A stretch of 64,000 nt of DNA from Buxus sempervirens (taxonomy: Eukaryota; Streptophyta; Magnoliopsida; Buxales; Buxaceae): the NCBI GenBank assembly GCA_947561395.2, contig OX387182.1, positions 39,425,949 to 39,489,948 on the forward strand. The letters are read 5' to 3'. The notes under the pieces are model-generated. The model was not told the DNA's origin. It was given only the letters and a program-made list of their open reading frames with translations, and did no database searches. The position numbers were made by a program, and so were the translations under genes. Positions 4,257 to 64,000 of the stretch are shown here, in pieces (within the stretch, counting starts at the first letter, position 1; each line of letters opens with the position of its first letter).

Positions 4257-5640
4257 ATTGGGGTATGCCTATCTGAGGTACAGCGAGATGTAATGATACG
4301 ATTCTTGGCTGATTATGAAGATGTATTTGCATGGTCGTATCGGGATATGCCAGGTTTAGACACGGACATGGTTGTGCATAGGCTACCCATTCTACCAGAT
4401 GCCAAGCCAGTTAAGCAGAAACTGAGAAGGTTAAAACCTGAATGGACATTGAAGGTCAAAGATGAAATGGTTAAGCAATTCTAAGCTGGGTTCTTAGTAG
4501 TCTCCACGTACCCCGAATGGCTTGCAAATATAGTGCCAGTACCAAAGAAGGATGGAAAGGTTAGAATGTGCGTAGATTATAGAGATTTGAATAAGGCAAG
4601 TCCAAAGGATGATTTTCCACTTCCACACATTGACATCTTGGTGGACAACACTGCTGTACATAGTCTATTCTCATTCATGGATGGCTTCTCTGGGTACAAT
4701 CAAATTAAGATGGCTAAGGAAGACCAAGAGAAGACAGCCTTCATCACACCTTGGGGTACCTTCCATTACACTGTCATGCCATTTGGGCTTAAGAATGCCG
4801 GGGCAACCTACCAACGGGCCATGACAGCCTTATTCCATGATATGATCCATAAGGAGATGGAGGTTTATGTGGATGATATGATAGCTAAATCATGTGAAGA
4901 AGAAGACCACTTGATCAACTTGAAGAAGGTGTTTGACCGGCTCAGGAAATACAGTCTAAGGCTTAACCCTGCGAAATGTGTCTTTGGGGCTACATCAGGA
5001 AAATTATTGGGCTTTATAGTAAGTAGAAGGGGAATTGAGATAGACCCAGCTAAAGCTAAAGCAATCATCGAAATGCCATCACCTAGAACAGAGAGGGAGG
5101 TTCGTGGTTTTCTTGGAAGGATTCAGTACATAAGCCGGTTCATAGCACAGCTCACCGCTATCTGTGAACCAATTTTCAAGCTTCTAAGGAAGAATAACCC
5201 GACAGTCTGGAATGACGATTGCCAAGAAGCCTTTGACACAATAAAGGAGTATTTATTGAACCCACCTGTGCTAGTACCACCAACTCCAGGAAGACCATTG
5301 ATTTTATACTTGTCTGTTTTGGAGACGTCAATGGGGTGTGTCTTGGGACAGCATGACGATACAGGCAGAAAGGAAAGGGCGATTTACTACTTAAGCAAGA
5401 AATTTACAGAATATGAAGCAAAGTATTCCCCTTTGGAAAAGACTTGTTGTGCCTTAGTGTGGGCAACTCAAAGACTGAGGCATTATTTCCTTAGTCACTC
5501 CACCTTATTGATATCCTGAATGGACCCTTTGAAGTATTTATTTGAGAAACCAGCTTTAACTGGCAGAACAGCAAAGTGGCAGTTGTTACTCTCTGAATTT
5601 GACCTCACCTATATCACACAGAAAGCCATTAAGGGTCAAG
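4257..5640 (+). pseudogene. Element A reverse transcriptase and RNase H
   Basis: RT copies the element RNA into cDNA inside the particle. Visible motifs are QKLRRLKPEW (about 4410-4440), VDYRDLNKASPKDDFPLPHID (from 4573), MPFGLKNAGATYQR, and the catalytic YVDDM at 4866-4880. The gypsy RNase H follows (about 5290-5515, with LETSMGCVLGQ and YSPLEKTCCALVWA). Two stops break it: TAA at 4482-4484, where C has CAA (KQFQAGF), and TGA at 5517-5519, where B has CGA (LISRMDPL). Both are C-to-T changes. Apart from these the catalytic residues are intact, so the copy looks recently dead. Confidence 0.9.
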
Positions 5641-7481
5641 CCATTGCTGATCACCTAGCCACACACCCTTTACCAGAATACCAACCTTTAAAGACTAATT
5701 TTCCTGATGAGGCAATCATGTTTACTGAAGAAGAAGAAGGGGAAAGCTCGTGGCAAATGTTTTTTGATAGGGCCACCAATATGAATGGAAATGGAATAGG
5801 GGCTGTTTTGATCAAGCCAGATAGGGCACATATCCCAATCGCAGTGAAGCTTAGGTTCCAATGCACGAACAATATAGCAGAGTATGAAGCATGCATAATT
5901 GGATTGCAAGCTGCCTTAGACCATGAAGTAGAGGAACTTGACGTATATGGGGATTCGAGTCTTATCATCTTCCAAACAACGGGTGAATGGAAAACCAAGG
6001 ATCACAAATTGATCCCCTATCACCAGTATTTGGAACAAATAAGCAATAAATTTACTCGAATTTCTTTCAATTATATGCCAAGGGCCAAAAATCAGTTTGC
6101 AGATGCTCTAGTAACATTGGCTTCAATGGTCAGTATGCCAGAAGGTGTTGATATTAGACCATTGGAAATTGAAGTAAGAGATGAACCAGCTTATTGCCTT
6201 ATTCTAGAAGAAACCCCAGAAGAAGAGGTACCGTGGTTTCAAGATATTAAGAACTTCCTAAATGATCAGAGTTTGCCAGAAAATGTCACTTCTACAGAGA
6301 AAAGAACAATACAGAGGTTGGCAGGACAGTTCTTACTAAGTGGTGGGCAGTTGTACAAAAGATCACACAATGATATACTACTTAGATGTGTTGCCAAGAC
6401 CGAGTCAGAAAGGCTAGTTGAAACTGTACATGGTGGAGTGTGTGGACCCCATATGAACGGGCACATGCTTGCCAAGAAAATTCTGCGATTGGGATATTAC
6501 TGGTCGACTATGGAGCATGATTGCTATATACATGTCAAAAGGTGTCATTTATGCCAAGTGTATGTGGATAACAAGAATGCACCTCCAAGTGAATTACACA
6601 ACATGACATCCCCATGGCCCTTCTCCATGTGGGGTATAGACGTCATTGGAATGATCTCTCCAAAGGCATCAAATGGACACAGGTTTATACTTGTAGCAAT
6701 CGATTACTTCACCAAGTGGGTAGAGGCAGCTTCATATGCAAACATTACAAGTAGCCACGTTTTGAAATTCTTGAAGCACAATATCATTTGTTGCTACGGT
6801 TTGCCAAGTGCCATAGTATCAGACAATGCTTCAAACCTTAAGAACAAGGACATGAGAAGGATGTGTGAACAGTTTCAAATTACCCACCACAAGTCAGCTC
6901 CGTATAGACCAAAGATGAATGGGGCAGTGGAAGTTGCAAATAAGAATATAAAGAAGATCATTCAAAAGATGGTAGTGAGTTTTAAAGATTGACATGAAAT
7001 GCTGCCACTTGCTCTACATGCTAACAGAACCTCAATTCGAACTTCTACAGGGGCAACCCCGTATTCCTTAGTATATGGAATGGAAGCAGTTTAACCAGTG
7101 GAAGTGGAAATACCTTCACTAAGAGTGCTAATGGAAGATGAATTAGAAGAAGCTGAATGGATACAATCAAGACATGATCAACTCAATCTAATAGAGGAAA
7201 AGCGATTAAAAGCGCTTTGCCATGGCCAATTGTATCAGAAGAGAATGGCCAGGGCTTACAATAAGAAGGTTAAGCCCAGAACTTTCCAAGAAGGAAATTT
7301 AGTATTGAAGAAAATCTTAGCCTTTTTAGAAGACCCTCGTAGAAAGTTCAAACCAAATTGGGAAGGACTTTATGTGGTCAAGAAGATCTTATCAGGAGGT
7401 GCTCTCATCTTAATAGAAATGGATAGGAAGGATTTTCCTGAGCCAATTAACTCTGATGCAGTAAAGAGATATTTTCCATGA
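5641..7481 (+). pseudogene. Element A archaeal-type RNase H and integrase
   Basis: The second RNase H (about 5745-6125) starts at WQMFFDRATNMNG and carries the acidic set D (FFD), E (AEYEA), D (GDSSLI) and D (FADAL); this extra domain marks the Tat lineage. Integrase follows: an HHCC zinc finger (about 6430-6560, HGG...H...CHLC), then the catalytic core with D in WGIDVIG (about 6630), D in VSDNASN (about 6820) and E in the position NGAVEVANKN (about 6925). The C-terminal part (about 7330-7480) contains GLYVVKKILSGGALIL, resembling the GPY module of B and C. TGA at 6990-6992 (TGG in C) and TAA at 7092-7094 (TTA in B) break the frame. Confidence 0.9.
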
Positions 7482-8427: not shown

Positions 8428-10207
8428 CTAATCCCTACTCCCTAACTGCTCCTCAAGTTCCCTAATCCTAGCTGCCTGAGTTGCAATGATTCCAGAAGCA
8501 CCCTCTGCATCAGGATCACTCAAAAAGGAGATGACCTCATCTGAAAAAGAATGCTTGATCTTCAACGCCCTAAGGTCGGCCAAGGAATCCTGATATTTCT
8601 TCCGCATCACTCGGACTTCAAAGCGATGAGCTTGCCTTTGTTCTTCAAGTTTCTTCTCCATGGCAATACGGCCAGACTTCTGCTCCTGAAGTTTCCTCTC
8701 CAGAACAAGGACTTTTATCCTAAGTTCTTGAGCCTCCCGTACCCATATTTGATGAAGCCGCCTATGGGTTGCCCTTTCAGACTCCAGAATGTCCTCATAA
8801 GTAGGGGGAAGAACAACAGGAGGATCTTCTGGTACTGGGGCATGACTCTGCACCTGCTCTTTGATCCAAAAGTGATAGTCCTTCACATGGGACTCAGAAA
8901 AGACAGGACCCCGCAGAAAGCGAACATAGGACCACTCATTCATTAATTGAGCATTTAGCCCCATGGTGGCTGATGTAAGTGGTCCTACAAGGCTCTCGTA
9001 GCCAGTTGGGATCATAATTCCCTGGGTCGCTCCAAACTGTCGAAGAACCCTCAAAGGAAGATAGAGAACAACAGATTTCAAGCCTGCCAGGACCAGAAAG
9101 TTCCTATCTCTGAAGCTGATCACTGTCTCTGGATTGGGTTGATAAGTGCCTGGCCATCTCACTTGATCATCCTGGAGAGTACCCAAGAAAGTGAACCATC
9201 CCTGCTTGCCGCCTTTGATATTAGGACAACCCCTGTGGCTCATCAGAACAGGAACTTTCAACCTTGGAAAGAAGCGGCGAGTTATCTCTTCAACTTGGCT
9301 CAGATGGTCAAGCAACCAAAGCTGCAGAAAAGGGGAGTATTTCAATTTATTTCCAAAAAGGAAAAAAAAAGAGAAAAAGAAAAAAAAAAGAAAAGAAGGA
9401 AAAAAGAAAAAAAAAAGAAAGAAAGAAGAAAAAAAAGAGAAGAGAAGAAGGAAAAGAAAAAGAAGAAGAAAAAAAAAAGAGAGAAAAAAAATATATGTTT
9501 ATTTTTACCTGTAGGATAGGGGCGCAGGCAAGGAAGCGTTTCTTCTTTCTGAAATAACAGTCAGTAAGGGCCTAGTATATCTCTGCTAAGATCATAGGGG
9601 CCAACCTCTCACGTTCCCTAACCTGGCAGATAATTGAGATAAGAGCCAAGTCAACCTGGTCATCACCCCGTGGAAAAAGCAACTGATTGACCACTACCAC
9701 AGTCAATGCATTAAACCTGGCATCCTTGTCCCCACTCCTTAGAAGTTTTTCAGTCAAAAAGGTCTTGGACAAGGTCAATAGGGTATCAGAATTCCCTAAG
9801 TCTTTCTTCCCTATACCCAGGAATGTAGAGGCCTCCTTTTTGTAACTAGGCTTTAGGGGTGGGTTCACAACTTTTTCAGAAAATCTTAGGCCAAGGATGG
9901 TTTCAATTTCTTCTATGGTAGGAGTCATCTCTTTGTCATCAAAACGGAAAAGATTCAGTTCTGGAACCCAGTGTCCAATCAAAGCTTCAATAATTTCCCA
10001 CTTAAAGGGAATTTTAGGGATGTGTAGGATATGCCCTAAGTGGATGGAATCCCAACGAATCTCCTCATCAAGGGTCATGGAGTTAACCAATCTATCATAG
10101 AAGGAGTCCACAATGTTATACCTGGTGAGATTAGGAGGTTTGGATCTAACAGGGTGTCTTGTAGGAGAAGATTCAACGGCAGGAGAAAGCGGCGTAGGGG
10201 AAGCCAT
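8428..10207 (-). pseudogene. Element A antisense gene 1: DUF7745/PMD-like protein, two exons
   Basis: Two exons on the minus strand: 10207-9509 (699 bp, start MASPTPLSP) and 9321-8428 (894 bp), joined in phase across CAG|GTAAAA and TTCTGCAG|CTTTGG to give a protein of about 530 residues. Exon 1 contains HLGHILHIPKIPFKWEIIEAL and ELTPTIEE-like sequence (KEMTPTIEEIETILGL), which I recognise as the plant DUF7745/PMD-like fold found in many transposable elements; its biochemical role is unknown. The second half of exon 2 is heptad-rich and probably a coiled coil (ESERATHRRLHQIW onward). A TAG at about 9572-9574 replaces a CAG retained in B (AEIYQALTD). The gene has its own TATA box and lies tail-to-tail with pol. 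Confidence 0.8.
9322..9508 (-). other. Intron of antisense gene 1 in A, almost pure pyrimidine on the coding strand
   Basis: The intron is 187 bp. On the plus strand about 9355-9490 is nearly uninterrupted A/G (GAAAAA-type tracts); on the coding minus strand it is a T/C tract leading to the acceptor. The B copy is 124 bp (17446-17569) and C has a comparable purine tract at 62355-62525, so length varies freely while composition is kept. Long lysine-rich open frames on the plus strand here are by-products of composition. Confidence 0.75.
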
Positions 10208-10298
10208 GGAAGCGCCAAAGAAGCCAAGGAAAGCGAGAAAAGACGTGCTCAGGGAGTTTTCCAACTAATAAAAGTGTCTCAATGACGTTCCCTATGAG

Positions 10299-10458
10299 TT
10301 TATATAGAAAAAATCGTAAGGCAGTAAAATCCGTAATTATACTACGGGCATAGCGCGCCCGTATAGGATATACGGACACCCTTGACCGTGAAACCTTCAC
10401 GGGCAGAGTGCGCTCGTAGTAACTTTACGGTCACGGCTTGCTCGTAGTATAAGTACGG
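10299..10458 (-). promoter_or_regulatory. Promoter of antisense gene 1 in A: TATA box plus five-unit dyad array
   Basis: On the minus strand TATATAAA lies at 10306-10299, about 92-100 bp before the ATG. Directly upstream (10331-10458) are five dyads of the form CCGTA-N7-TACGG, including CCGTA/TACGG twice, CCGTG/CACGG and two with CTCGTA/TACGG. The spacer is seven bases in every unit and the repeat period is about 27 bp. The same arrangement precedes gene 1 in B. The TATA call is firm; a regulatory role for the array is inference. Confidence 0.7.
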
Positions 10459-10673
10459 TTCTGCCGAAAAAATGCAAAAAAATGGGAATTTTTAATTTCT
10501 TTGTTTCCCTAAGCTTCACCTGTCCCTGCTTTAACATTCATCATGTAATAAAAACTGAAAAGAAAGAAGAAAAGAACACAAATGAATGAAAATTAAACTT
10601 CTTTTATATATACGAATGTTTACATGACTTTTGTCAAAAATACAAAGGTATATGAAAAATCCTAATCTACTGT
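10459..10673. other. Short non-coding gap between antisense genes 1 and 2
   Basis: AT-rich sequence containing the 3' end of antisense gene 2. It includes TATATATA at about 10604-10612 and no open frame of note. Gene 2 ends at 10674 and the upstream dyad array of gene 1 begins at 10458, so the two antisense genes are arranged head-to-tail about 0.2 kb apart. Confidence 0.6.
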
Positions 10674-13534
10674 CTATTCAGGTCCGCCCTTATGGCCACG
10701 GCCTCGTCCTCTGCCTCGACCACGGCCTGAAGATCGCCTGCGCTCAAAGACATGCCGCACAATATTGCGGGCAGTGCTACGAGTCATCCTGCTCAAAACA
10801 GATTGAATATCATACCACATATATAAAGGCACAAGGCCAGCAGTAGGATGATCAAGAGGGACGTACCCTGAAGTATCTACATATCCCGTAGACTCGGGAT
10901 CAGAATCAGTACGGGAAGAATCCACAGAAGGATCAGCAGCAGCAGGCGTCTCCTCTACAGCCTCCATAGCAGGATCAGCAGGAGCAGATGTCCCAGGTAT
11001 ATCAGCATCCACCTCAGGCACAGGATCAACTGTAGCCTCCTCCATCACCACGGCCTCCACAGCAGACTCTACCACAACGGCATCCAGGGCCGAATCCATA
11101 TCTACATCCGCAGATGCATCAGGAGCAGTCTCAGCTACTGGGGCAGACTCTGGCACATCCTCAGCAGCAGGTATAATAACAGCCTCGATCTCAGGCTCTA
11201 CTGCAGGTGCCTTTGCCGGACTGGGAGAAGTCACGAACTCCACCCGTGCCACAGAAAATACCTCATCCCGAAAATGCATAGGCATAGGTGAAGCCGGTGA
11301 AGAAGAGCCGGCCGTGTCCTCCTGAAAATAAGAGAAGAAATTTCAGTCAGAACCAGATAAACAGTTATAATAGCAGGAATGGAAATAAAAGAAGAAAATA
11401 ACCTGAGTATGAGATGGACCCGCCTGGTCCTGTGCATCAGATGGACCCTCCTGGCCCTATGCCCTGGCCAGCTGCCCCCGGCGGTCTGAGATCGTGATAT
11501 AGAGGGCGTCCCGCTCAGCAATCGCAGCATCTCGCTGGCGCTCTAGATCAGCATATCGGGACCGGATCTCTGCCAACTGAGCCTCCTGAAATAGAAAAGA
11601 AAGGGTCAGAAAATGTCAAGATCAAATGAAAACACAAAGGTGAAAAGGAAGAAGGCATACCATAGTGTCATAAGCCCTAATCACTACCCCTCTAATCTCA
11701 GTGACTCCGCCATGGACAGGCATGGGTGGCATGAGGCACCCAACTGAAGCTCGCCTAAACCAGGCATCATAGTCACCCTCCTCCAATAATGTCTCTGCCT
11801 CAGTCCAATCCAGGAACTGGGCAGGATCAACAGGCATAGGAGGATAGGAAGGAGCAGTATCTGGTGTGATAGCAGGAATCCGCGGCTCTCCTACATGCTG
11901 AAAGAAGAAGCACTCGCCGTAGTACCAGATGCTGCCCATCTGACCAATAAAGAACTGGTATCTCTGTCGTCTCTGGTCAGGGACAAATGCATCATCTCTG
12001 GCTGCATGCAGGGCCAACACCTCATGAATGTCCTCCATCCTGGGGACAAATAGCTGAAAAACAGAACAGGATATCAGATATGTGATTCAGGAAGAAAAGA
12101 AAAGAAGAAAGAAGAGGAATTAAAGCAGATCACCTCAGACCGATACAGCCTGTCCAAGTGGGCCCGGGCGGACCTAGGACGACACTTTTCAGAGTCGTGC
12201 TCTACATGACACCATCTACGTGCCATGGGATACGTCTCCTCAGGCATCATAGAGGTAGGGCGGAAATAGGGTATATAAACCCTAGCAAAAAACTGCAAAA
12301 ATAAGAAAAGAGTCAGAGAAGGAGAAAAAGAGAAAGAGAGAAAGAAAGAGAAAAAGAAGGGAAATAAGATTCACCTACAAAAAGGGCCAGAAGAACCTGC
12401 ACCCGACTCCAGCCCCTCTGGAAGGAGAGGCCGCTCACCGATCGGCGCAGACCGGCCAAAATAGTACCAAAAATGAGCGGGCCCCATGCATATCTCCTCG
12501 CCCGCTGCAGATCTCCCAGAAGACTCAGAAAATGAGGACTAACTGAAGTCGTGTCCTCTGGGAAGAAGCAGGATCCCATCATGTACAAGAAGATAAATCT
12601 GAAGGCGAAGGGGGAGATAGGATCACCAGCAACCAGCTGTCCTAGTCGCCTCCTCAAGAAAGTCTCTCTCAACCATGTCAGAGACAATCTCGCTCTCCCT
12701 CTATCCCAGGCCTCAGGAGGTAGCACGATATATCCAAGATAAACAGCAACCTCATCAGCCTCTGGCATCGCCATCTCAGTAATAACATCACCAATCATCC
12801 TAATCCCGGTGATAAGGGTGAAGTCAGAAGGCCGGATCCCGATCTCAATATCTGGGAAGTGGAAGCTCAAAGTCTCCGGGAAGAATCTCTCGAGCAGTGC
12901 CGCAATGAGGACCCGATCCAGGCGCACGTCCGGAATGGTAATAAACATGCCAAATCCATATAAGCCTAACTCCCGACGGTAGGCCGAACTGCAGGCTCCC
13001 AAGAATCTAATAAAACTGGCCCAGCTCCCTCTATAGTGGGACATAGGATACTCCAAAGGGATATCCACCCTAATACACGCTGAGGGATGAGTCCTCAAGC
13101 CATGCAAAAGATCGGTATCCCTAATTTGGGCAGCCACTTCCTCAGGGATCTCAACCCTGGTCCGGGCCTCATCTCTGCCACGGCCCCCTCTGCGGCCTCC
13201 TCTACAGCCCTAATCATGGCCTCCATCTTTGCCTCCAGCTCGACGCCTGCTACGGCTCCTATCTCTGCCCGAAGCCTCAACAGCCGGCTAAAAGAAAATA
13301 AGTGAAAGAAGGAAAGGATCAAGAGGAGATATTTTTGAAAATATTGAATTCAGACAGGTTAGAATATACCTCTGGGGTCGCCTCACGCGAATCCCCAGAA
13401 GGGAGATCAGGGACATCAGAATCTGAATCCCTCTCGGCCCTCGAAGACGAGGCCACATCAGCAGGATCGCGCCTAACCCTCGAAGAGGAAGGCTCATCTG
13501 CAGGATCCCTGGAAGCTGATCTAAGGCGGGCCAT
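10674..13534 (-). pseudogene. Element A antisense gene 2: plant mobile domain-like protein, six exons
   Basis: I predict six exons on the minus strand: 13534-13370, 13287-12379, 12292-12134, 12053-11661, 11585-11403 and 11321-10674. All lengths are multiples of three (165, 909, 159, 393, 183, 648) and every intron is phase 0 with GT-AG ends, giving 818 codons including the stop. Exon 2 carries an Arg/Gly/Ser-rich stretch and then a PMD-like domain (RFFPETLSFHFPDIEIGI, TLITGIRM). Exon 5 encodes a short coiled coil, and exon 6 an acidic Ala/Asp/Glu/Pro-rich region ending in (RG)n. In-frame TAG codons at 13210-13212 and 11457-11459 break it; the second looks like a former CAG. PMD relatives MAIN and MAIL1 act in transposon silencing in Arabidopsis; the role of element-borne copies is not known. 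Confidence 0.75.
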
Positions 13535-15353
13535 CTATGGTTCAAACCAGGGAGATGTTAATTATTTCTTGTTAAAATTTTTACTGCTTGATCTTTATTC
13601 TAACCAAGTTTAATTGATTTACAAAAAAAATGAATGATGAAAGAAAGTGCCTCAAAAACTCCCGACCAAAATCAGAAGTCAACTAAGGAGTTTAATTTTG
13701 AGAAATTTTATTGTTACCTGTCTTTGCTTTGATCAAAATTTTACATATAGGAAGTTTAGGCTTCCTGTATATTCTCTTCATGTGAAAAAAGAAAAAATAT
13801 ATATATTGATGTGTTAGGAATGGATCTTAATTTCTTCTTTTGGGATTTTCTATAAAGACTTAACCATTCAACTTTATTTGGTTTCAGGATAAAAGTTTAA
13901 GTCTATTTGCATGGATACTGGAATTACAGAACTGGAAAACCATTTCAATAAGAGGCTTACCATTCAAGGACAAGAACCTCAGAATTTCGGTCGAAAATCA
14001 GGAAAATTGCAAGTAACAGTTCAGAGGTGTCAATTAACAAGGAAAATGCAAAGTGCAGTAGGTAAGCTGGTTGTCAGTTCAAGAACAGAAATTTGCATGA
14101 AAGGCATTCAAAGTCATGCAAGTATACAAGTAACAAGCCTCAGGTAAAATCAGAAATAGAGCAATAAGGTGTTGAAATAAGAAGCAAATACAGCAATGCA
14201 AAGAGTTTCTTTAATCAAAACAGAAACCCCCCATAATCAGCAAGTCAGCAATGGATCAAATATGCATTGGGGATTAGGCAAGAGTCATGCAAATAGTCAT
14301 GAGAATTTTTAGAAGAAATATTGGATTGGCATAAGAATCAGATGTTGAACCATGAAATAGATCCAAATTTCTACAATCAGGAAATTGAATAGCTCATTGA
14401 TGAACAAAAATCTAAAGAGAGACATAGCTGTTTATCTGAATTGAAATTTGGCAGGAAAAGTGTGAGCTTTGTCTCACCCGAGCTTTCAGAATAGGAGGTC
14501 GACTCATCCACAGAAACAGTCCAAGATTAGTTGCAGCTTCGAATGGAATCCTTGGAAGCAAAGATGAATAATGGTGTGGCAAAGGCAATGGTATAACAGA
14601 GATTAGAAGGCCTGATTCGCCGGAAAAATCAACCTTTGCCAAATGAAAAGGGAGTTATCGGAGAAAAAGTCTTCGCCGAGGAACAATGGTCACCGGAGAA
14701 CAATGAGAATCGCCGGAATTAATGAGCAAGTTGTGGTCGCCGGAAATTTGAGCTGCCGGAGAAGAGAGAATGGCCGGAGAACAGTGGTCGTCGGAGGATT
14801 GTTGAAGAAGAAGAGAGACGTCCGTAGAAGAGGATACGGTCGACAAGGGCTTAGGGCTTGAATACGAGAAGAAAAGGAAAAAATCCGCAGTCGCGGGCTT
14901 AAGAAGATCATAAAATCCGTAAACTCAGTCCGGGCTTGAGATGACCGTGAAAGTAATACGGTCCCATTCACCCGTGAACAATCTACGGGTCGCATTGGTC
15001 CGTGACACAAATACGGGCGAAGCCAAAAATTGCATATTTTATTATTTTTTCCACAATTTTCAAAAGATCAATGTCTATATTAGTTATAAGTTGCAAGGAT
15101 TGCCACCATACTCACTTTTGTTCAAAAATTTTGTCTCAAATCTCACTTCATAGCCACGAGAGCTTAGTGAGAGGAGAGAGGAGGATTTGGCCCATAAGCT
15201 GAGGGACTTCTTAGCAAATCTTCCACAATCAATTCTTTTTTCAAAAATCATCCATTTAATCCTTGCAAAGTGCAATTGATTAGACAAAAATCTTAGAAAG
15301 TGCAATTGGTGGGTCTCTTTGCTCTCTGCTTGTAATTGGTTCCAATTACCAGC
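13535..15353 (-). other. Element A region upstream of antisense gene 2 (probable 5' UTR and intron)
   Basis: Non-coding on both strands. On the minus strand 14870-14640 has repeated CTCCGGCGACC-type sequence, the composition usual for plant 5' UTR first exons, followed by AT-rich DNA (14400-13540) that could be a 5' UTR intron. An array of dyads lies at 14885-15017. The part near 15150-15300 (CATAGCCACGAGAGCT) is also present in C near 63137, so it belongs to the element body. No transcript evidence can be drawn from sequence alone. Confidence 0.5.
14885..15017 (-). promoter_or_regulatory. Dyad array upstream of antisense gene 2 in A
   Basis: Four to five units: a degenerate CCGCA...CGCGGG, then CCGTA-N7-TCCGG, and three units CCGTG-N7-TACGG (cores at about 14945, 14972 and 15000). 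Unit form and the seven-base spacer match the arrays at 10331-10458, in the LTR and in the B leader. It sits just above the probable transcription start of gene 2 (about 14.87 kb). Confidence 0.65.
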
Positions 15354-15367: not shown

Positions 15368-15548
15368 TGTAGACACCCCAAATTGCACTACAGAATAAGA
15401 AAATAATAAAAACATGTAATTAGAGCTTAAAACAGGTCAAAAATGCATAAAAACTGGCTAAGCAGGCTTTGCCCGTATTTCATTCACGGGCCGGTCGCGC
15501 CCGAGATCTCTCTACGGTCAGGCGCGCCCGTAATACAAATACGGGTCA
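15368..15548 (+). mobile_element. Element A 3' LTR, first 180 bp only
   Basis: It starts TGTAGACACCCC and matches the beginning of the B 5' LTR (31093 down to about 30914, opposite strand) with one substitution and one indel by eye. It contains three complete dyads at 15471-15545 (CCGTA-N7-CACGG, CCGAG-N7-TACGG, CCGTA-N7-TACGG). Right after the third the similarity ends and intron sequence of B's antisense gene 2 begins. No 3' target duplication can exist because the LTR end is missing. Confidence 0.88.
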
Positions 15549-15627
15549 TAGTTTCTTCTTTTATTTCCATTCCTGCTCTTGCATTAGTTTGTCTTGTTTT
15601 GACTGAAATTTCTTCTCTTACTTTCAG

Positions 15628-16278
15628 GAGGACACAGCCGGCCCTTCTTCACCTGCTTCACCTGTGCCCATGCATTTTCGGGATGAGGTATTTTCTGTGG
15701 CACGGGTGGAGTTCGTGACTTCTCCCAGTCCGGTAGAGACACCTGCAGCAGAGCCTGAGGTCGAGGCTGATATTGCACCTGCTGCTGAGGATGTGCCAGA
15801 GTCGGCCCCAGTAGCTGAGACTGCTCCTGATGCATCTGCGGATGTAGATATGGATTCGGCTAGAGATGCCGCTGTGGTAGAGCCTGTTGTGGAGGTTGGG
15901 ATGATGGAGGAGGCTACAGCTGATCCTGTAGAGCCTGGTCGTGATGCTGATGTTCCTGGGACATCGGCTCCTGCTGGTCCTGCTATGGAGGCTGTAGAGG
16001 AGACGCCTGCTGCTGCTGATCCTTCTGCGGATTCTTCCCGTACTGATTCTAATCCCGAGTCTACGGGATATGTAGATACTTCAGGGTACGTCCCTCCTGA
16101 TCATCCCACTGCTGGCCTTGTGCCTTTATATATGTGGTATGATATTCAGTCTGTTTTGAGCAGGATGACTCGTAGCACTGCCCGCAATATTGTGCGTCAT
16201 GTCTTTGAGCGCAGGCGATCTTCAGGCCGTGGTCGGGGCAGAGGACGAGGCCGTGGCCGTAGGGGCAGACCTGCATAG
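15628..16278 (+). pseudogene. Element B antisense gene 2, last exon only
   Basis: This corresponds to exon 6 of the A gene (651 bp, 217 codons with stop). It is preceded by the acceptor CTTTCAG and opens with EDTAGPSSPASPVPMHF. It encodes the acidic Ala/Glu/Asp/Pro-rich segment, the conserved STGYVDTSGYVP and MTRSTARNIVRHVFERR motifs, and a C-terminal (RG)n tail. The frame is intact, but the five upstream exons including the PMD-like part are gone, because intron 5 is cut at 15549 and joined to the A LTR. Without a promoter it is presumably not expressed from its own start. Confidence 0.8.
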
Positions 16279-16495
16279 ACAGTAGATTAGGATTTTTCAT
16301 ATACATTTGTATTTTTGGCAAAACTGATGTAAACATTCTCATATATATAAAATAAGTTTAATTTTCATTCATTTGTGCTCTTTTCTTCTTTGTTTTCAGT
16401 ATTTATTGCATGATGAATGTTAAAGCAGGAACAGGTGAAGCTTAGGGAAACAAGGAAATTGAAAATTCCCATTTTTTTGCATTTTTTCGAAGGAA
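16279..16495. other. Element B non-coding gap after antisense gene 2
   Basis: AT-rich 3' flank of gene 2 (TATATATA near 16343) and spacer to the dyad array of gene 1. It matches A 10459-10673 in inverted orientation. Nothing else is visible. Confidence 0.6.
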
Positions 16496-16655
16496 CCGTA
16501 CTTAGTCTACGAGCAAGCCGCGCCCGTAAAGTTACCACGGGCACACTCTGCCCGTGAAGTTTTCACGGTCAGGGATGTCCGTAGTTTCTATACGGGCGTG
16601 CTATGCCCGTATTATAATTACGGATTTTATTGCCTTACGATTTTTTCTATATAAA
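16496..16655 (+). promoter_or_regulatory. Promoter of antisense gene 1 in B: dyad array and TATA box
   Basis: Five dyads at 16496-16623: CCGTA-N7-TACGA, CCGTA-N7-CACGG, CCGTG-N7-CACGG, CCGTA-N7-TACGG and CCGTA-N7-TACGG. TATATAAA follows at 16648-16655, 92 bp before the ATG at 16747. The arms differ from the A copy in several places, yet spacer length and unit number are the same. Confidence 0.7.
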
Positions 16656-16746
16656 CTCATGGGGGACGTCATTGTGACACTTTTAATAGTTTGAAAACTC
16701 CCTGAGCACGTCTTTTCTCGCTTTCCTTGGCTTCTTTGGCGCTTCC

Positions 16747-18463
16747 ATGGCTTCCCCTGCACCGTTCTCTTCTGTTGTTGAATCTCCTCCTGCAAGACAA
16801 CATGTTAGATCCAAACCTCCTAATCTCACCAGGTATAATGTGGTGGATTCTTTCTATGACAGATGGGTTAACTCCATGACCTTTGATAAGGAGATTCGTT
16901 GGGATTCCATTCACTTAGGGCATATCCTACACATCCCTAAAATTCCCTTTAAGTGGGAAATCATTGAAGCTTTGATTGGACATTGGGTTCCCGAACTGAA
17001 TCTCTTCCGTTTTGATGACAAAGAGATGACTCCTACCATAGAAGAAATTGAAACCATCCTTGGCTTAAAATTTTCTGAAAAGGTTGTGAACCCGCCCCTA
17101 AAGCCTAGTTACAAAAAGGAGGCCTCTACTTTCCTGGGTATAGGGAAGAAAGACTTAGGGAATTCTGATACCCTACTGACCTTGTCCAAAACCTTTTTGA
17201 CTGAAAAACTTCTAAGGAGTGGGGACAAGGATTCTAGGTTTAATGCTTTGACTTTGGTAGTGGTCAACCAGTTGCTTTTTCCACGGGGTGATGACCAGGT
17301 TGACTTGGCTCTCATCTCAGTTATCTGCCAGGTTAGGGAACGTGAGAGGTTGGCCCCTATGATCTTAGCAGAGATATACCAGGCCCTTACTGACTGCTAT
17401 TTCAGAAAGAAGAAACGCTTCCTTGCCTGCGCCCCTATCCTATAGGTAAAAATATACATATATATATTTTTTTCTTTTCTTTTTTTCTTTTTTTTTTCTT
17501 TTCTTCTTCTTTTTTTTCTCTCTTTTTTTTTCTTTTTGAAATAAATTGAAATTCTCCCCTTTTTTGTAGCTTTGGTTGCTTGACCATCTGAGCCAAGTTG
17601 AAGAGATAACTCGCCGCTTCTTTCCAAGGTTGAAAGTTCCTGTTCTGATGAGCCACAGGGGTTGTCCTAATATCCAAGGCGGCAAGCAGGGATGGTTCAC
17701 TTTTTTGGGTACTCTCCAGGATGATCAAGTGAGATGGCCTGGCACTTATCAGCCCAATCCAGAGACAGTGATCAGCTTTAGAGATAGGAACTTTCTGGTC
17801 CTGCCAGGCTTGAAATCTGCTGTTCTCTATCTTCCTTTGAGGGTTCTTCGGCAGTTTGGAGCGACCTAGGGAATTATGATCCCAACTAGCTATGAGAGCC
17901 TTGTAAGGCCACTTACATCAGCCACCATGGGGCTAAATGCTCAATTAATGAATGAGTGGTCCTATGTTCGCTTTCTGCGGGGTCCTGTCTTTTCTGAGTC
18001 CCATGTGAAGGACTATCATTTCTGGATCAAAGAGCAGGTGCAGAGTCATGCCCCAGTACCAAAGGACCCTCCTGCAGTTCTTCCCCCTACTTATGAGGAT
18101 ATTCTGGAGTCAGAAAGGGCGACCCATAAGCGGCTTCATCAAATATGGGTACGGGAGGCTCAAGAACTTAGGATAAAAGTCCTTGTTCTGGAGAGGAAAC
18201 TTGAAGAGCAGAAGTCTGGCCACATTGCCATGGAGAAGAAACTTGAAGAACAAAGGCAGGCTCGTCTCTTTGAAGTCCGAGTGATGTGGAATAAATATCA
18301 GGATTCCTTGGCCGACCTTAGGGCGTTGAAGATCAAGCATTCTTTTTCAGATGAGGTCATCTCCTTTTTGAGTGATCCTGATGCAGAAGGTGCTTCTGGA
18401 ATCATTGCAACTCAGGCAGCTAGGATTAGGGAACTTGAGGAGCAGTTAGGGGGTAGGGATTAG
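16747..18463 (+). pseudogene. Element B antisense gene 1: DUF7745/PMD-like protein, two exons
   Basis: Exon 1 is 16747-17445 (start MASPAPFSS) and exon 2 is 17570-18463; lengths 699 and 894 bp equal those in A. The donor codon has become TAG|GTAAAA where A has CAG|GTAAAA, so a stop now sits at the exon end. A second TAG lies at about 17869-17871 (FGAT*GIMIP, CAG in A). The N-terminal part contains KIPFKWEIIEALIGHW and DKEMTPTIEE; the C-terminal half is a predicted coiled coil ending in RIRELEEQLG. The N-terminal 50 residues differ from A at about a dozen positions, but the following 150 are nearly identical. Confidence 0.8.
17446..17569 (+). other. Intron of antisense gene 1 in B (pyrimidine tract)
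   Basis: GT at 17446-17447 and AG at 17568-17569. About 17460-17535 is nearly pure T/C on the coding strand. It is 63 bp shorter than the A intron, which shows tract-length change. Confidence 0.75.
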
Positions 18464-26531: not shown

Positions 26532-26744
26532 GGCGCGAGCTCTTGATCTGGTTACAGGAGCTATGATTGCAAGTGTATTAGTACCTGGTCACAAAATAAA
26601 GGAAAAAGTATCAGTGCCCAATTAATCTCATTCACATGCCTAGGAGTGCCTATGTGCAAGCTGGGTGAACACGAGTTTGGATTTTTTCTTTATTTGCTTC
26701 TTTTTTTTTTGAATTGTTGGAATATTCTAGGGCTTCCAACAGGT

Positions 26745-27537: not shown

Positions 27538-27666
27538 CCGTATACACAATACGGTCCAGCCCTGCCTGTATTCAAATTACGAGCAAGCCGTGACCGTATG
27601 AAATTCACGGGCGAGCGCCGCCTGTATAACTAATACAGACGAGCCCAGCCCGTGTATTAAACATGG
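27538..27666 (-). repeat. Dyad array in the leader of element B
   Basis: Five units, each with a seven-base spacer: CCGTA/TACGG, CTGTA/TACGA, CCGTA/CACGG, CTGTA/TACAG and CCGTG/CATGG, repeating about every 28-30 bp. The fourth unit carries matching changes in both arms. These are the same dyads as in the LTR and antisense promoters of A and B. Confidence 0.8.
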
Positions 27667-30155: not shown

Positions 30156-30186
30156 TGAAGACAGAAAATAAAAGGGAAAAGGGACT

Positions 30187-30869: not shown

Positions 30870-31497
30870 CTCGCACGAGTCTTTAGTGACCGTAAATCAT
30901 TTACGGTCCAACGGTGACCGTATTTGTATTACGGGCGCGCCTGACCGTAGAGAGATCTCGGGCGCGACCGGCCCGTGAATGAAATACGGGCAAAGCCTGC
31001 TTAGCCAGTTTTTATGCATTTTTGATCTGTTTTAAGCTCTAATTACATGTTTTTATTATTTCTTATTCTGTAGTGCAATTTGGGGTGTCTACAGCAACAC
31101 ACACTAAACAATGTAGTCGGCTACACCGAGACCCTAGGTGATTCGACTTGAGTTGTCGGATCACCCTAAAATTGGAATTTTTCGGGGTTTTGCAAGTGGG
31201 ATGCTCCCATGAGTCTCCTAAGCAGCTCCTACCAGTTGTGTGGGCCCCTGAGAGGGCCCACATTGATTTAGATATGGGGAATCTTCCCATTTAACTTCCT
31301 TTGGGATTTCCCAGCAAAGGCAAGGGGACAGGCAAGAGCACATGGGGCTGCTGCCCCTCCTCATTTCTTTTTGAGTCATACAACAGCAGCAAAGGGGGAG
31401 AAGGAACATGTTTGGCACCTCTAGCAGCAAAAAAATAAGGAAAGACACACACACAAAAAAAAAAAAAAAACAGAGATTGCATGCATAAAAGGAAAAT

Positions 31498-32394: not shown

Positions 32395-32659
32395 TTTTAT
32401 AGAAAAACTTTTGTATCCAACCAAACAGGTCGAATACACTATATCCCAAGTGTATCCAACCTATATAATCAGATACAATAAATCTCCTTTGTATCCGACA
32501 TTGTTTGTCGGATACAGACAAAATGATTGCCAAAATTCAATTTTTCTGCGCGAATCTGTCAGTGAATCGGCGGGAATCCTTCGACATATCTCATGTATCC
32601 GACCAATAATGTCGGATATACACAAAAATATGCGTATCCGACATATATGGTCGGATACA
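32395..32659 (-). promoter_or_regulatory. D segment: TATA box and five-unit dyad array
   Basis: TATAAAA lies at 32401-32395 on the minus strand. Upstream are three well-kept dyads TATCCGA-N9-TCGGATA (at about 32492, 32596 and 32634) and two decayed ones beginning TATCCAA (32415 and 32453). The spacer is nine bases in the intact units, as in the C-type LTRs. Confidence 0.7.
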
Positions 32660-33748
32660 AATAGGATATTTACAGATTTGCCCCTGGATATTTGCAGATT
32701 CTCCTGATACTTTTGGATACTTTAAGATTTAGTCCTTGGGATATTTGCAGATTGTAACGCCCCGAACCCGGGTCAGTGCAAACCAGCACCCGACCCGAAC
32801 CCGGTTTGCTACTGTAACAACCCGAATTTAGTTCAACAACCAAATCCGAGGTGTTACTGGCCCATATCAATTACAACATTAATAACATACCAGACCAAAG
32901 AAAGAAAATCCAATCCATATATTAAACTATCAGAGTTGCGGAAACAAGTATGTGCGGAAGTGTAGATCAAAATCCTCAAACAAGCATAAAGCTTGACCAT
33001 CAGTCAGTAATATCAAAGTCTGGTAAAATGAACGGTTCACTATCTCTCTCTCTCATCTCTCTCATACATCAATCCATATAAATGATAATAAACCAATCAA
33101 AATGCTAAATCTATAACATCAATCCACCTCAGATGAGATCTGGATAATAATAATCCTCCGGCGAATACTCGGCTATCTCTCCCTGGAAGTCTAAGAGATC
33201 CCCCTCTCGCGTATCAGCTGAAAAAATGGAATAGAAGTAGGGTGAGATACGAATATCTCAGTAGGTAACACATGCATGATTAAACAGTTAATATAAGCAA
33301 AGTAACATTTCATGCACGATAAAGCAACATCGATAAATCAGGCTCGCATAATCATTTATACCATTCATGAACACAAAACAGTTTGATAACAGTTCTAGAA
33401 ATGATTTTCAGCAAGTTTTAATATAAGAACTCAATAGCCAAATCAATAGCATAATCCATGCATTGCCAGGATGTACTAAGCAGTCACATCCAACCAATAT
33501 CCCAATCACATGCATCCCGCACGTGCACAATAAGAATAATAATCATATCAAGTGTTATGTTTTCAGTGTCATTGTAAGACTCACAAAGTTAGATAAACCT
33601 TTTGAGATGATTCTCAACCAATTGCTATACCACTGTGCGACTTAGGAGTGATGCTACTAATGATACTCAAGCCCCATGCAGCGCAGCTTAGACAAGAGCC
33701 GTAGTCACCGACTTATTGCACACGTACCCATCAGAGTTGGCATGTACC

Positions 33749-36048
33749 TGTGAGACATGGGAAAAATCACCGGTGTGATCATCCCTCCGTCAACACACGG
33801 GCTCAACGCAAAATTGGGAGAGTCGCCACCATTCTTGATTTTGGGGTGAGAATGGACACCAAAGAATTCAAAAATAAGCAAAATAGCCAAAAGACAAATT
33901 CTAGGGTAAAAATAACCCTACTTGAAAATCGAATCCAGAGATGGGTAAGGGGATTAGATTATGAACGGGGGAAGGTGTTAGGCACCCCCATTCATCCACA
34001 CGAAGTGGTTGCCAAGTGTATGTTCATGCAAAAATAAAGTAAGAAAGCTTGCTAAAAATCATGAGAAACCTTGAAAAAGGTCAAATGTATGATATCTTCA
34101 CATAAGAATCCAAATGAATTTTGGATTCTCCTCTTATGTCAATATCATTTCTGGAACATTAAAGAGGTGGAAATCAAAGCACAAGTTGCTCAAAACCAAG
34201 TCAAATCAAATCCGGGAAGTTTGGTAAAAAGTATGCCATTTGCCTTGAAATCATTCAAATCCAATTCTAAATTGAACCAAACCAAATCCATTTGAAAGAT
34301 TAGGGTTAATAAGAGTCTCATGCAAAATTTCACTTCATTCCAATGAAAAATCTAGGAGTTATGCTCCTTTGAAGTTGCTGTTGGGGAGTTTTAAAAGTGG
34401 TAAGTGGGGAACTTTGGAAAATTGTCTAGAAAAATCCACTACATAAAAGTCCACGAAATTTGGTGTGATTGAAGTTTGTATGGCCATCTTTCAAAAGAAA
34501 CTAGCCTCATACAAAAATCCCTTTGGATGTGCCTTGGGTGGTCTCCCGAACAGGCCCCAAAGATCACAGATTTACCCAGAAAAGTACAAATGAACAGTTC
34601 TGAGTAAATCGGCTACCAATAATTCAAATGGAATCCAAAAATTATGAAACCAACTGGATTTGAAAATAGACTCATAAAGAAATACTCAGAAACAAAAATA
34701 CTCGAATCGGACTTAAAACAAACACATGGCGGTCCGTCGAAGTGACAAGTTCTGTACTTGAACCTAAACTGTCCACTTAACTTCGACAGAGAGGTGTCAA
34801 AAATCTGCTCGATGGAAATTCATGAAATTTGGTGGACATAAACTAGACAGCCTCACCTTTCCCATGGTTCTGGAATCACCCCAAAATTCATCCGGATGAT
34901 GAAGTTATGGGTGTCCGAAGTAAGGGTACAGGTGCTGTCCAGTTAAGCCACTTTTGAAGAAAATCAAATCCGAAAATTGACAAAGTGTGTGAGATTCGTG
35001 TGAGATGAATCCAAAACCTTTGAAAAACATTTAAAAACACTCCAGAATTTGATTGAGGCCATTTATTGGAGATTTATCACAATGAATGTAATAAATCCCC
35101 AAATGTGAGCCTATTCACCAAAAAAGTGTAATATGTGTGCAAGAGTGAAAAACCAAGTAAGATTAATACAACCACATATCATGCATATAGATTCAACAAA
35201 ATAGGTTCTAGCATAGCCTAGGGTTCCGTTCCATTATCGTTTCCCTCTGTTCTCTCTCCCCGTTAAACACGGATCTTCGAAATAATCAAGGGTAATTTGA
35301 TTATAGAACGGTTTTCAATCATTCAAAAGCCTTATGCTACATGGGTTCTAGCACTAGGTCAATCCCCAGTCTCGTTTCTCCTAGATCCGCCTTCACGTTT
35401 TACGGCTAGGGGAGTCTTGAGATACTTTGAGCCAGGGAAGGATTTCCACACATACAAACAAGGCTTTACACTACAGAAAGGTAGAAGAAGAGATCTAGAT
35501 CTAGGAATGTAAAGACAGAAAATAAAAAGAAAAGTTGAGGCTTACCTGAGTTCTGGAGGCGATTCCACAGCAGTTTTCTTCTTCTCTTGGAGTTCTTCTT
35601 TGCGAGAATTCAAAACAAGAGTTGTGTGTCATTTGCTCAAGGAGGAGGCTCCTATTTATAGGCAAAGGCTAAGGTCATTGGTAGACACAACTTAATGTCT
35701 AGAACTCCCCCAACCTAAACCCTAAGGTTATTTCCGCGATTTCCCCTCATTTAATGAGGGACATGATGGTAAAAGTGAAAAGCTCTCGGAAAACCCTAAT
35801 TCTGAGCAAACTTAAGGTATCCGGTACGTCAGACCGGATAAAAAAGGGCCTTAAGGTATCCGGTACATGGTACCGGATACGCTAAGGCTCACATGTATCC
35901 GGTATGAGTATCCGGATACAGGAAGGAGTACTTGTATCCGGACTGAGTATCCGGATACAGGTAAAAGTTTATTTTCTTCAATTTCTGTGCTGGCTTTCCA
36001 GGAGATAATGATTTTTTATGATTGTTTGTGCAATTTGGGGTGTCTACA
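33749..36048 (-). mobile_element. Solo LTR of the element C family, nested in E
   Basis: On the minus strand it starts TGTAGACACCCC at 36048 and ends ATGTCTCACA at 33749 (2300 bp), flanked by the exact target duplication GTACC (33744-33748 and 36049-36053). It shares with the C LTR four TATCCGG-N9-CCGGATA dyads (35817-35958), TATAAATA (35660-35653), a 29-codon open frame before a CAG|GTAAGC donor, CCGTAAAACGTGAAG and the 3' block GTGTTAGGCACCCC. As a solo LTR it has no coding region. Confidence 0.93.
35546..35660 (-). promoter_or_regulatory. Solo LTR: TATA box, candidate first gag exon and donor
   Basis: TATAAATA at 35660-35653, ATG at 35632, open for exactly 29 codons to CAG at 35546, then GTAAGCC. 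The peptide MTHNSCFEFSQRRTPREEEN... aligns without gaps with that in the C LTR (MAINSCFEFSSRRTPREEGN...), with 13 base differences and no stop. The ATG lies only 28 bp from the TATA box, so it may or may not be inside the transcript. Confidence 0.55.
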
Positions 36049-48401: not shown

Positions 48402-48543
48402 GTATCCGGCAACTCAGGCCGGATACAAGTGTTCTTCTTTGTATCCGGTGGAACATACCGGATACAAGCAATCCTTAGTATATCCGGCATTATATGCCGG
48501 ATACATTAAAGCCCTTGTGTATCCGGTCTGATATGCCGGATAC
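48402..48543 (+). promoter_or_regulatory. Four-unit dyad array upstream of the C LTR TATA box
   Basis: Four copies of TATCCGG-N9-CCGGATA (spacers CAACTCAGG, TGGAACATA, CATTATATG, TCTGATATG), at a period of about 39-41 bp, ending 156 bp before TATAAATA. Arms are perfect in all four; spacers are unrelated except in length. The 3' LTR repeats the array up to the window end. Confidence 0.8.
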
Positions 48544-52143: not shown

Positions 52144-52285
52144 TTAACCGGCAACTCAGGCCGGTTAAGAACACTTTTCCTCATATCCGGTATATAATGC
52201 CGGATACAAAGGGTTATGCGTGTATCCGGTCATTGTTGCCGGATACAATAAGGCATGTGCTTATCCGGTATATTATGCCGGATAC
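52144..52285 (+). repeat. Four-unit dyad array in the C leader
   Basis: Units TAACCGG-N9-CCGGTTA, TATCCGG-N9-CCGGATA, TATCCGG-N9-CCGGATA and TATCCGG-N9-CCGGATA. The first spacer is CAACTCAGG, identical to that of the first LTR unit, so this is a copy of the LTR array. Its first unit has changed in both arms in a matching way. Confidence 0.82.
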
Positions 52286-61439: not shown

Positions 61440-62324
61440 CTAATATCTGTCTCCTAGCCGCTCCTCAAGCTTTCGAATCCGAGCTGCCTGAATTGCGATA
61501 ACCCCAGAAGCCCCCTCTACAGCGGGATCACTCAAGAAGGAAATGACCTCATCTGAAAGAGTCTGCCTAATCCGCATGCTCCTAAGGTCGGCTAAAGCAT
61601 CCTGGTGCTTCTGCCTCAGTGCTCAGACTTCAAGACAGCGGGCCTGCCTATGCTCCTCAAGTTGCTTCTCCATAGCCAGACGGCGAGATACCTGCTCTGC
61701 AAGTTGCCTTTCCATGTCAAGGCCCCGTATCCTAAGCTCCTGGGCCTCTCGTACCCATATCTGCTGAAGTCGCTTGTGGGAAGCTCTCTCAGACTCTAAA
61801 ATATCCTCATAAGTAGGAGCCAAGACTGCAGGAGGATCTTCGGGTACTGGAGCCTGACTCTGTATCTGCTCCCTGATCCAGAAGAGATAGTCCTTCACAT
61901 GAGATTCTGAGAAGACCGGGCCATGCATAAAGCGAACATATGACCACTCTCTCATCAACCAAGCATTCAGCTTCATGGTGGCTGGTGAAAGTGGCCCAAG
62001 GCGGTCCTCATATCCACTTGGGATCATAATCCCCTGGGTTGCTCTGAACTGACGAAAAACCCGCAAAGGAAGGTAAAGCACCGCATGTCTCAGGCCAACC
62101 AGAACCAGAAAGTTGCGATCTCTGAAGCTGATCACAGTCTCTACATTGGGCTGATAAGTACCAGGCGACCTCACTTGGTCATCCTGGAAGAAAGTAAACC
62201 AGCCCTGTTTACCTCCTGGAGTATTAGGACACCCCCGGTTGCTCATCAAGATGGGAACCTTCAAGCTTGGGAAGAAATGTCAATTGATCTCCTCAATCTG
62301 ACTCAAGTGGTCAAGTAACCAAAG
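61440..62324 (-). pseudogene. Element C antisense gene 1, exon 2 only
   Basis: It matches exon 2 of A (9321-8428): LWLLDHLSQIEEIN, then a TGA near 62279, then HFFPSLKVPILMSNRGCPN, ending ARIRKLEERLGDRY. A second TGA lies at 61623-61625 (CLEV*ALRQ). Three codons are missing at FTFFQDDQ compared with FTFLGTLQDDQ. The pyrimidine intron follows upstream (about 62325-62535 on the minus strand), but exon 1 is not there; the sequence beyond 62540 does not match it. The gene has no promoter and is dead. Confidence 0.82.
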
Positions 62325-63362: not shown

Positions 63363-64000
63363 TGTAGACACCCCAAAATTGCATGATTTTTGATAAATCT
63401 TGAAGGAGAGAAATATTTTATAGGAATTTTCAATTCTTTGCATTGGGTTTGAGATACTTAACCCATTTGAATCCAAAGCCGTAAAGGAAAAGGCCCAAAT
63501 TCTATCTTTTGTGCAAAGTCAAACTTTTTCCGGTTGAATTTTGTTGACGTTTGACCCCAGAAAATGAAATATTTTTTAAAGCAAGATTTCAAGATAATTT
63601 TTCCCGGTAATAAGGTTTTTAGCCAATGTTATTGCATAAATGAATTTTTTGAGATTTTAAATCTTGATGAATACCTTGGTTTTAACATATTGAACCTTTT
63701 TTTCCAAACCTGAAAAATCGGAATTTTGCCTAGAACTGGAAAGTTGACTTTTTATTCACTTGGAATTTGGGTCTGGAACTATTTTAATGGATTCAAATGG
63801 GGGGGTGTTTGCTTATTTACATGTAATATCTTAAGTAAATGGAGATTAAAAAATACGAGGACATTTACTTAAACGATATTACATGTAAATAAGTATTGCC
63901 TGTGTTAAAATGCGAAAAAAAGGCTTTTTTCCTTGTATCCGGCAACTCAGGCCGGATACAAGTGTTCTTCTTTGTATCCGGTGGAACATACCGGATACAA
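63363..64000 (+). mobile_element. Element C 3' LTR, first 638 bp
   Basis: It matches 47830-48468 with about ten substitutions and two single-base indels. It includes the foldback (63812-63893) and the first two dyads of the TATCCGG array; the window ends inside the second. The rest lies outside. Confidence 0.93.

Follow-up and report, generated by a model that had tools for sequence, protein, structure and literature searches.

The window analysed here, the whole 64-kb stretch of Buxus sempervirens DNA, is made up of nested plant retrotransposon DNA. Elements A (plus strand, up to ~15548) and B (minus strand, 15549-31093, LTR at 28890-31093) are close relatives of the Ogre type. The 3' LTR of A starts at 15368 and is truncated at ~15548. 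Element C (plus strand, from 47830) is a relative of A/B whose 3' LTR is cut by the window end, and element D (33749-36048) is a solo LTR of the same kind as in C, flanked at either end by GTACC as read by eye. A/B encode gag, RT-RNase H, an extra RNase H and integrase, followed by two antisense genes between pol and the 3' LTR. The additional RNase H between RT-RH and integrase, an Ogre trait, is present (RT_RNaseH in 4533-5519; RVT_3 at residues 92-200 and rve at residues 367-464 of 5520-6992), as is the extra ORF with a plant mobile domain (PMD, PF10536), another Ogre trait, here antisense to gag-pol.

Both antisense genes of A/B carry a PMD; PF10536 scored above cut-off in 12313-13137 (minus), 9572-10264 (minus) and 16747-17445 (plus), and the Pfam result for these genes was PMD/DUF7745 plus weak matches. 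Antisense gene 1 of A (8428..10264, minus strand) has two coding exons, with PMD/DUF7745 followed by a charged tail; exon 1 of the window copy contains one in-frame stop. Antisense gene 2 of A (10674..13533, minus strand) is a multi-exon PMD gene with exon limits set by eye, comprising a PMD exon (12313-13137) and a C-terminal exon (10674-11285) that ends in an RG-rich tail. In B, gene 1 (16747..18463, plus strand) has an open exon-1 frame at 16747-17445 and part of exon 2 at 17876-18463, and gene 2 is present as its C-terminal part only (15549..16278, plus strand), the element being truncated. C contains an exon 2 remnant of gene 1 (61623..62264, minus strand), without a match in C to gene 1 exon 1 or gene 2 and without an array upstream of the remnant within C. 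Both PMD proteins have stretches that look, by eye, like coiled coils, which would suit a dimer.

Phased CCGTA dyads in elements A and B

The original prediction described multi-unit arrays of the dyad CCGTA-N7-TACGG in A and B. These arrays are real. The exact dyad occurs 8 times in the window and 0 times in 100 dinucleotide shuffles. When up to 2 of the 10 arm bases were allowed to change, 28 dyads with spacer 7 were found in the window, 25 of them within the named arrays. Under this rule, ~5 dyads per spacer were obtained from 10 shuffles, and 3-23 at the other spacers (0 to 24). Successive units are 28 bases apart, sometimes 27.

The arrays of A/B occupy the LTR, the leader and the promoters of both antisense genes. 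In A, five units stand upstream of antisense gene 1 (10331..10458, minus strand), followed by the TATA box TATATAAA at ~10298-10306 on the minus strand. Four units stand upstream of antisense gene 2 (14917..15016, minus strand), with no TATA consensus beside them, and three dyads in the U3 of the 3' LTR (15473..15544, plus strand). In B, five dyads precede antisense gene 1 (16496..16623, plus strand; TATA at 16648), five lie in the leader (27538..27666, minus strand), the fifth being degenerate (at 27650), and four lie in the LTR U3 (30890..30989, minus strand; TATA at 30294, with a MITE-like insertion between).

All six sites were found where the prediction had placed them, except that the gene 2 array had been extended to 14885. 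The irregular stretch there (CCGCA..GCTTA) was tried as a dyad unit and rejected after alignment of the rows, leaving the four clear units. The sequence of the seven-base spacer had been called free; it is AT-rich and otherwise loose. Variants had been said to change in both arms, which is the case at 10386, 16552 and 27622, whereas elsewhere often one arm alone is changed. An alignment of 27 rows, one of them the 14885 stretch, shows a half-site that reaches outward to G[CA]CCGT[AG].

Several further features were noted around these arrays. Just past its third dyad, the 3' LTR of A breaks off, and B gene-2 sequence follows in inverted orientation (15545-15549); this is a rearrangement breakpoint bordering a dyad array. 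The MITE-like insertion in the U3 of B, between array and TATA, measures 384 bp (30486-30869); read by eye, its ends are CAGTGGCGGAACC..GGTTCCGCCACTG with a long G run inside. An apparent target duplication, CTCGCACG, is present at 30478-30485 and 30870-30877. A TGCA-W-TTTTT-like element recurs at the upstream edge of several arrays in both families (15440-15472, 10459-10480, 15017-15040).

Might the palindromes act as RNA or silencing targets, i.e. as transcript hairpins, small-RNA hot spots or packaging/dimerisation signals? The leader array would be transcribed, judging by its position, and in maize Sireviruses the parts of the LTR that are rich in palindromes are hot spots of small RNAs according to the accessible part of PMC5311732. 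On the other hand, five-base arms with seven-base loops would in general form weak hairpins. Perfect complementarity between the arms is confined to 11 of the 25 A/B dyads; the other 14 are mismatched, among them the first U3 unit, which reads CCGTA..CACGG on the sense strand and has an A-C mismatch. Moreover, the gene arrays lie upstream of TATA, and a stem would not need to keep an equal distance between different arms, as is seen in the second dyad form described below. We consider a role as RNA or silencing target very unlikely.

A second dyad form and a common CCG-N11-CGG core

Arrays with another motif, absent from the original prediction, are present at 35818-35957, 48403-48542, 52145-52284, 63936-63997 and ~32410-32660. 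The dyad of C/D is TATCCGG-N9-CCGGATA with a 39-bp period, and it occurs in LTR and leader. In C, four dyads lie in the 5' LTR U3 (48403..48542, plus strand; TATA at 48699), four in the leader (52145..52284, plus strand), of which the first reads TAACCGG-N9-CCGGTTA with both arms changed, and two in the 3' LTR U3 (63936..63997, plus strand), where the array is cut by the window end. The solo LTR D has four TATCCGG dyads (35818..35957, minus strand; TATA at 35660). The E array (32410..32660, minus strand) consists of TATCCGA-N9-TCGGATA upstream of TATAAAAG on the minus strand. It is partly decayed, with three intact units (32492, 32596, 32635) and further units with C-to-T-type changes.

When aligned on their centres, all dyad forms share CCG-N11-CGG. 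This core occurs 37 times in the window, always in arrays (20 in A/B, 3 in E, 14 in C/D), as against 0-13 occurrences (mean 3.9) for each of the other CCG/CGG spacings from 0 to 29. Free variation of the spacer in other family members, which would argue against a fixed geometry, was not observed: the arms of C/D differ from those of A/B, but the CCG-N11-CGG distance is constant. Note that the Ty1/copia fragments at 39855-43637 (gag_pre-integrs, RVT_2) are without CCG-N11-CGG dyads. Tandem repeats also lie between dyad array and gag, in the leader of C (52542-53546, 75 bp) and of B (26757-27395, 34/48 bp); these units differ from each other and are longer than the dyad units.

The proposed genome search for dyads was run on 676,531,615 bases (676.5 Mb) of the host. 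CCGTA-N7-TACGG was found in 28,303 exact copies among 29,032 with spacer 3-11 (97.5%), and TATCCGG-N9-CCGGATA in 28,399 exact copies among 28,453 with spacer 5-13 (99.8%). Reversed-pattern controls were near clean for TATCCGG (5 and 11) and high for the short CCGTA pattern (1,785 and 9,847), so that the bare CCGTA-N7 count is weak evidence. The control string GGCAT-N7-ATGCC itself occurs 1,785 times (9,847 with N3-11); some GGCAT..ATGCC repeat is common in this genome. Among the matches listed in the spacer 3-11 search, all 50 of 50 CCGTA sites had spacer 7. A 33-base pattern spanning one and a half A/B units gave 11,213 and 11,242 matches on the two strands and 0 in the reversed control. The two-unit pattern had no match in viral contigs.

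Among the TATCCGG matches listed, 69 of 90 sites fall in five elements picked by eye, and the remaining 21 in incomplete or other places. In the five elements, arrays recur in the order LTR, leader, gene 1, LTR at steady distances, and 3 of the 5 also have the exact dyad at gene 2. The step within arrays is 39 in 41 cases and otherwise 38 or about double. For 2 of the 5 (L074, L075), sequence was used to check which arrays belong to gene 1 and gene 2; the leader assignment is by position.

Next, we compared the variability of arms and spacers. The LTR arrays of C and D differ at 0 of 56 positions in the arms, 16 of 36 in the spacers and 16 of 48 in the linkers (arms against spacers, Fisher p=2e-8). 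For the gene-1 arrays, A and B show 2 changes among 50 arm bases and 7 among 35 spacer bases (p=0.03). Of the best 30 of 150 scored gene 1 exon 1 copies (5,981 candidates), 28 have TATATAAA at a distance of 98 or 99 bp upstream of the gene-1 match. Mean pi in these 30 copies was.087 in the arms,.061 in the 2-bp flanks,.142 in the linkers and.210 in the spacers; outside the array, it was.140 in the 100 bp upstream and.045 in the 122 bp downstream, which hold TATA and 5' UTR and are less variable than the arms. In variability, the arms lie below the remainder of the array and above the core promoter. CG was kept in 268 of 300 arm cells (89%), 91 of 120 cells in the rest of the array, ~78% in the flanks and 259 of 300 cells (86%) in coding sequence.

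Passive tandem-repeat expansions, inherited by copying and without present function, would be an extremely improbable source of such a pattern. Retand elements, which belong to the same lineage group, commonly contain tandem repeats according to the accessible part of PMC11963269, and copying has happened here, since some spacers recur between sites (see below). However, passive copying would not preserve the arms over the spacers, nor a spacer length that is almost invariant over >28,000 sites, nor the CG of the arms over that of the rest of the array.

Promoter position and joint change of motif and gene 2

Apart from those in the leaders, the arrays stand in front of promoters, on one strand or the other, and a TATA box accompanies most of them. 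The distance from gene-1 array to TATA is ~25 bp in A/B and 13 bp in a C-type copy (L061), and the U3 arrays of C and D end ~157 bp before TATAAATA. The gene 2 arrays are closely followed by a GC-rich core promoter, which by eye is apparently common to the families. No known promoter adjoins the leader array.

These positions would fit a repressor equally well. An element PMD protein could bind the dyads and shut LTR and antisense promoters once enough protein is present, thereby controlling copy number; arrays are found, too, in front of the genes predicted to encode such a factor, an arrangement needed for negative autoregulation. Against repression, the abundance of exact sites, >28,000 for each dyad, speaks for highly successful elements, and arrays upstream of TATA, instead of over the start site, should suit an activator better. 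VANC, the nearest model, is anti-silencing according to the accessible part of PMC5735166. We regard a repressor as quite unlikely.

In C-type relatives, TATCCGG arrays were present at the gene-1 promoter (4 of 8 gene-1 regions fetched: L061, L062, L064, L068), and also in L074 and L075. They were absent from the gene-1 regions L063 and L065-L067, 3 of which are of a shorter, C-like exon-2 type. In L068, TATCCGG and TATCCGA arms are mixed. C-type gene-2 promoters had TATCCGG arrays in L070, L074 and L075 and a degenerate array in L071, and C-type LTRs had them in L070, L071 and L074. Note that L069-L071 were picked as upstream parts of array-bearing copies, and L074-L075 for their listed arrays. 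The word is CCGTA in A/B and TATCCGG in C-type copies at LTR, leader, gene 1 and gene 2 alike. A different arrangement was seen at L024, with an A/B-type array (1434-1533) and a C/D-type array (1691-1830) ~160 bp apart, at the junction of a B-like with a C-like LTR sequence.

Gene 1 and gene 2 arrays lie between recognisably shared flanks in both families. The gene-1 arrays are flanked alike, with a TTTTTTTGCAWT tract on the left and TATA on the right, and therefore look orthologous, with the word changed. Some spacers recur between sites: CAACTCAGG in the C LTR and leader, and TATATCAGA in one copy's LTR and another copy's gene 1 promoter. In addition, one gene 1 array aligns with an LTR array in opposite orientation (77% over 145 bp). 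Arrays may thus be copied from site to site within an element, and such copying alone may yield the joint change of motif.

How far have the proteins diverged between the families? Identity between A/B and C-type copies was 95-98% for RT, 89% for INT, 58-82% for protease and 57-67% for gag. Gene 1 exon 1 was 73-80% identical over the full exon (69-85% by piece) and exon 2 75-79%. The PMD exon of gene 2, A against C-type, reached only 47-51% and the next two exons 36-40% and 35-47%; for the first and the last two exons, no match was obtained at 1e-3. A and B are 97.6% identical in RT, 92.7-94% in gene 1 and 86.8% in the C-terminal part of gene 2, and five C-type gene 2 copies (queries L070, L071) are 90-95% alike in their main pieces and 49-51% identical to A. 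Gene 2 is thus, among the genes compared, the most changed where the binding word changes. This divergence, seen with one A-type copy, could be modular exchange. A search with the gene 2 PMD exon gave no protein homologues at 1e-3 and no PDB sequence match up to E=1.

The main rival explanation, a host transcription factor, bears on the same data. One dimeric family with CCG half-sites, whose paralogues differ in flank preference, would have been recruited to drive the element promoters. Most arrays are upstream of TATA boxes, consistent with such recruitment, and host factors have been suggested for the CG-rich palindrome clusters upstream of TATA in Sirevirus LTRs (accessible part of PMC2829016). 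A host factor alone offers no reason for the change of arm and period at all site types while RT remains 95-98% identical, an objection that is softened if arrays were copied between sites.

Distantly related, F-like copies (L078, L079, L010, L001) are also relevant to the host-factor explanation. They share CCGTA-N7-TACGG with A/B, in phased arrays and in one case upstream of TATAAATA, but their LTRs do not align with those of A/B, and gag identity to A is 25% (L001) and 42-45% (L079). In these comparisons, 13 of 30 loci from the 33-base-pattern search were used, the rest being overlaps or repeats. L078 encodes a gene-1-like PMD protein 30-39% identical to A's. L079 (8 kb), placed among the F-like copies only by the letters of its arrays, has gag but no RT or PMD match at 1e-2. 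As L079 retains CCGTA arrays at its LTRs, the sites outlive the genes in cis. F-like places may comprise more than one family; the copies may be served in trans, may have kept an ancestral specificity, or may share a host factor. Overall, a host factor appears rather unlikely to us, and yet the likeliest of the rivals. Two PMD-bearing regions, L076 and L077, read to see whether PMD implies dyads, had no array in the pieces read. L076 (G000:C12:20505500-20514500) is another family, with two PMD ORFs ~3.4 kb apart; many such pairs exist, with near-identical scores.

A putative element-encoded factor and related systems

The original prediction had favoured a dimeric DNA-binding protein over an RNA hairpin, and the spacing fidelity of 99.8% and 97.5%, together with the arms kept over the spacers, supports this choice. 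At the level of sequence, a dimeric DNA-binding regulator is a well-supported reading of the dyads, given the fixed half-site distance, the variable spacers, the phased multi-site arrays at promoters on both strands and their joint change. The dyads would be binding sites for a dimeric, sequence-specific factor, with two half-sites at the fixed distance CCG-N11-CGG and flanks that would set family identity (GMCCGTR in A/B, GTATCCGG in C/D). The phased arrays of ~2 to 5 such sites would serve the sense U3 promoter and both antisense promoters from upstream, with another array in the leader.

The factor itself is most likely encoded by the element, in one of the two antisense PMD genes, with gene 2 as the better candidate; we infer this role, and that of gene 2 as specificity setter, from the parallel change of motif and protein. 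It would bind copies of its own family and its own promoter (positive autoregulation), and binding would keep family copies open or active against host silencing, as VANC does on VANDAL transposons. The best explanation of the data, to which we give an even chance, is a putative dimeric PMD regulator, encoded by the element and probably by gene 2, that activates or protects its own family. The parallel with an element gene involves two families and one A-type gene 2 copy. The fact that two middle gene 2 exons align and that some arrays seem copied slightly lowers the probability of this explanation and of the bolder version that follows.

More tentatively, and with somewhat less than an even chance, this regulator would amount to an Ogre self-recognition code. 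A PMD dimer from antisense gene 2 would read family-flanked CCG-N11-CGG at all promoters of its own family, the arrays would change jointly with the protein, and copies lacking the genes would keep their tags for use in trans. With motif and protein changing together, each family would drive or protect only itself. A swap of the flanks around the constant CCG-N11-CGG core should then swap the partner. PMD proteins occur in plant transposons and as the host silencing factors MAIN/MAIL1, with no direct DNA target in the accessible parts of the literature consulted. If the dyads are PMD targets, they would provide testable sites, tens of thousands in one genome, would account for the antisense genes that these giant elements carry, and would represent a second case of transposons evolving family-specific protein-DNA codes. 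A self-recognition code would give TE-borne PMD proteins a DNA-binding function and constitute, for LTR retrotransposons, a system of the VANC type based on the plant mobile domain.

No description of these dyads in Ogre elements was found in the titles and abstract openings of the open-licence literature. In the accessible text of PMC6317226, Ogre elements (Ty3/gypsy, OTA/Tat) carry PMD (PF10536) in 57% of cases and an extra RNase H between RH and INT; both the PMD extra ORFs and the extra RNase H are found in the window, but that text mentions no cis-element partner of the PMD ORF. Retand elements are similar in having antisense ORFs between pol and the 3' LTR, with a suggested DNA-binding and regulatory role, and family-specific tandem repeats. 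They differ in carrying a TRP28 domain instead of PMD, and dyads linking LTR and antisense promoters are not mentioned in the accessible part of the source (PMC11963269).

The Arabidopsis host PMD proteins MAIN, MAIL1 and PP7L are likewise tied to a common promoter motif (accessible parts of PMC7156037 and PMC9899485); MAIN/MAIL1 affect genes that share it (PMC7156037). This DOWN motif (CATGCAGTTT) is not a spaced dyad, and the sources, as far as accessible, describe the tie to PMD without direct binding (PMC7156037, PMC9899485). According to the accessible part of PMC9899485, it is not known whether the MAIN/MAIL1 complex makes contact with chromatin at all. The TGCA-W-TTTTT-like letters at array edges resemble part of the DOWN motif, which may be chance.

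Sireviruses (Ty1/copia) contain RM boxes: palindromes built on a CGG-CCG core are clustered upstream of the LTR TATA, a second cluster lies upstream of the extra (ENV) gene, and the sequences differ by element (accessible part of PMC2829016). They belong to another superfamily and have compact CGG..CCG palindromes, not CCG-N11-CGG in 28/39-bp phase, and the same part of the source describes neither antisense gene promoters nor a partner protein (PMC2829016). Membership of the Buxus dyads in the RM boxes was considered and rejected, given the Ty3/gypsy domain order and the CCG..CGG orientation with 11 bases between.

VANDAL elements (Mutator-like, Arabidopsis) have short motifs repeated in non-coding element DNA that differ between related families, and the element genes diverge along with the motifs; VANC6 motifs are also found in the unrelated element AT9TSD1 (accessible parts of PMC5735166 and PMC10398659). 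The Buxus elements likewise have motif arrays in non-coding element DNA and a motif that differs between families along with gene 2. VANDALs are DNA transposons, whereas here LTR retrotransposons carry phased dyads and antisense PMD genes. The VANC21 motif, as printed, is the 9-mer YAGTATTAY, with no spaced dyad, and binding and demethylation have been shown for VANC (accessible parts of PMC5735166 and PMC10398659); the putative Buxus regulator is predicted from sequence. In our assessment, the nearest cis-element precedent is the Sirevirus RM box, and the nearest working model VANC on VANDAL.
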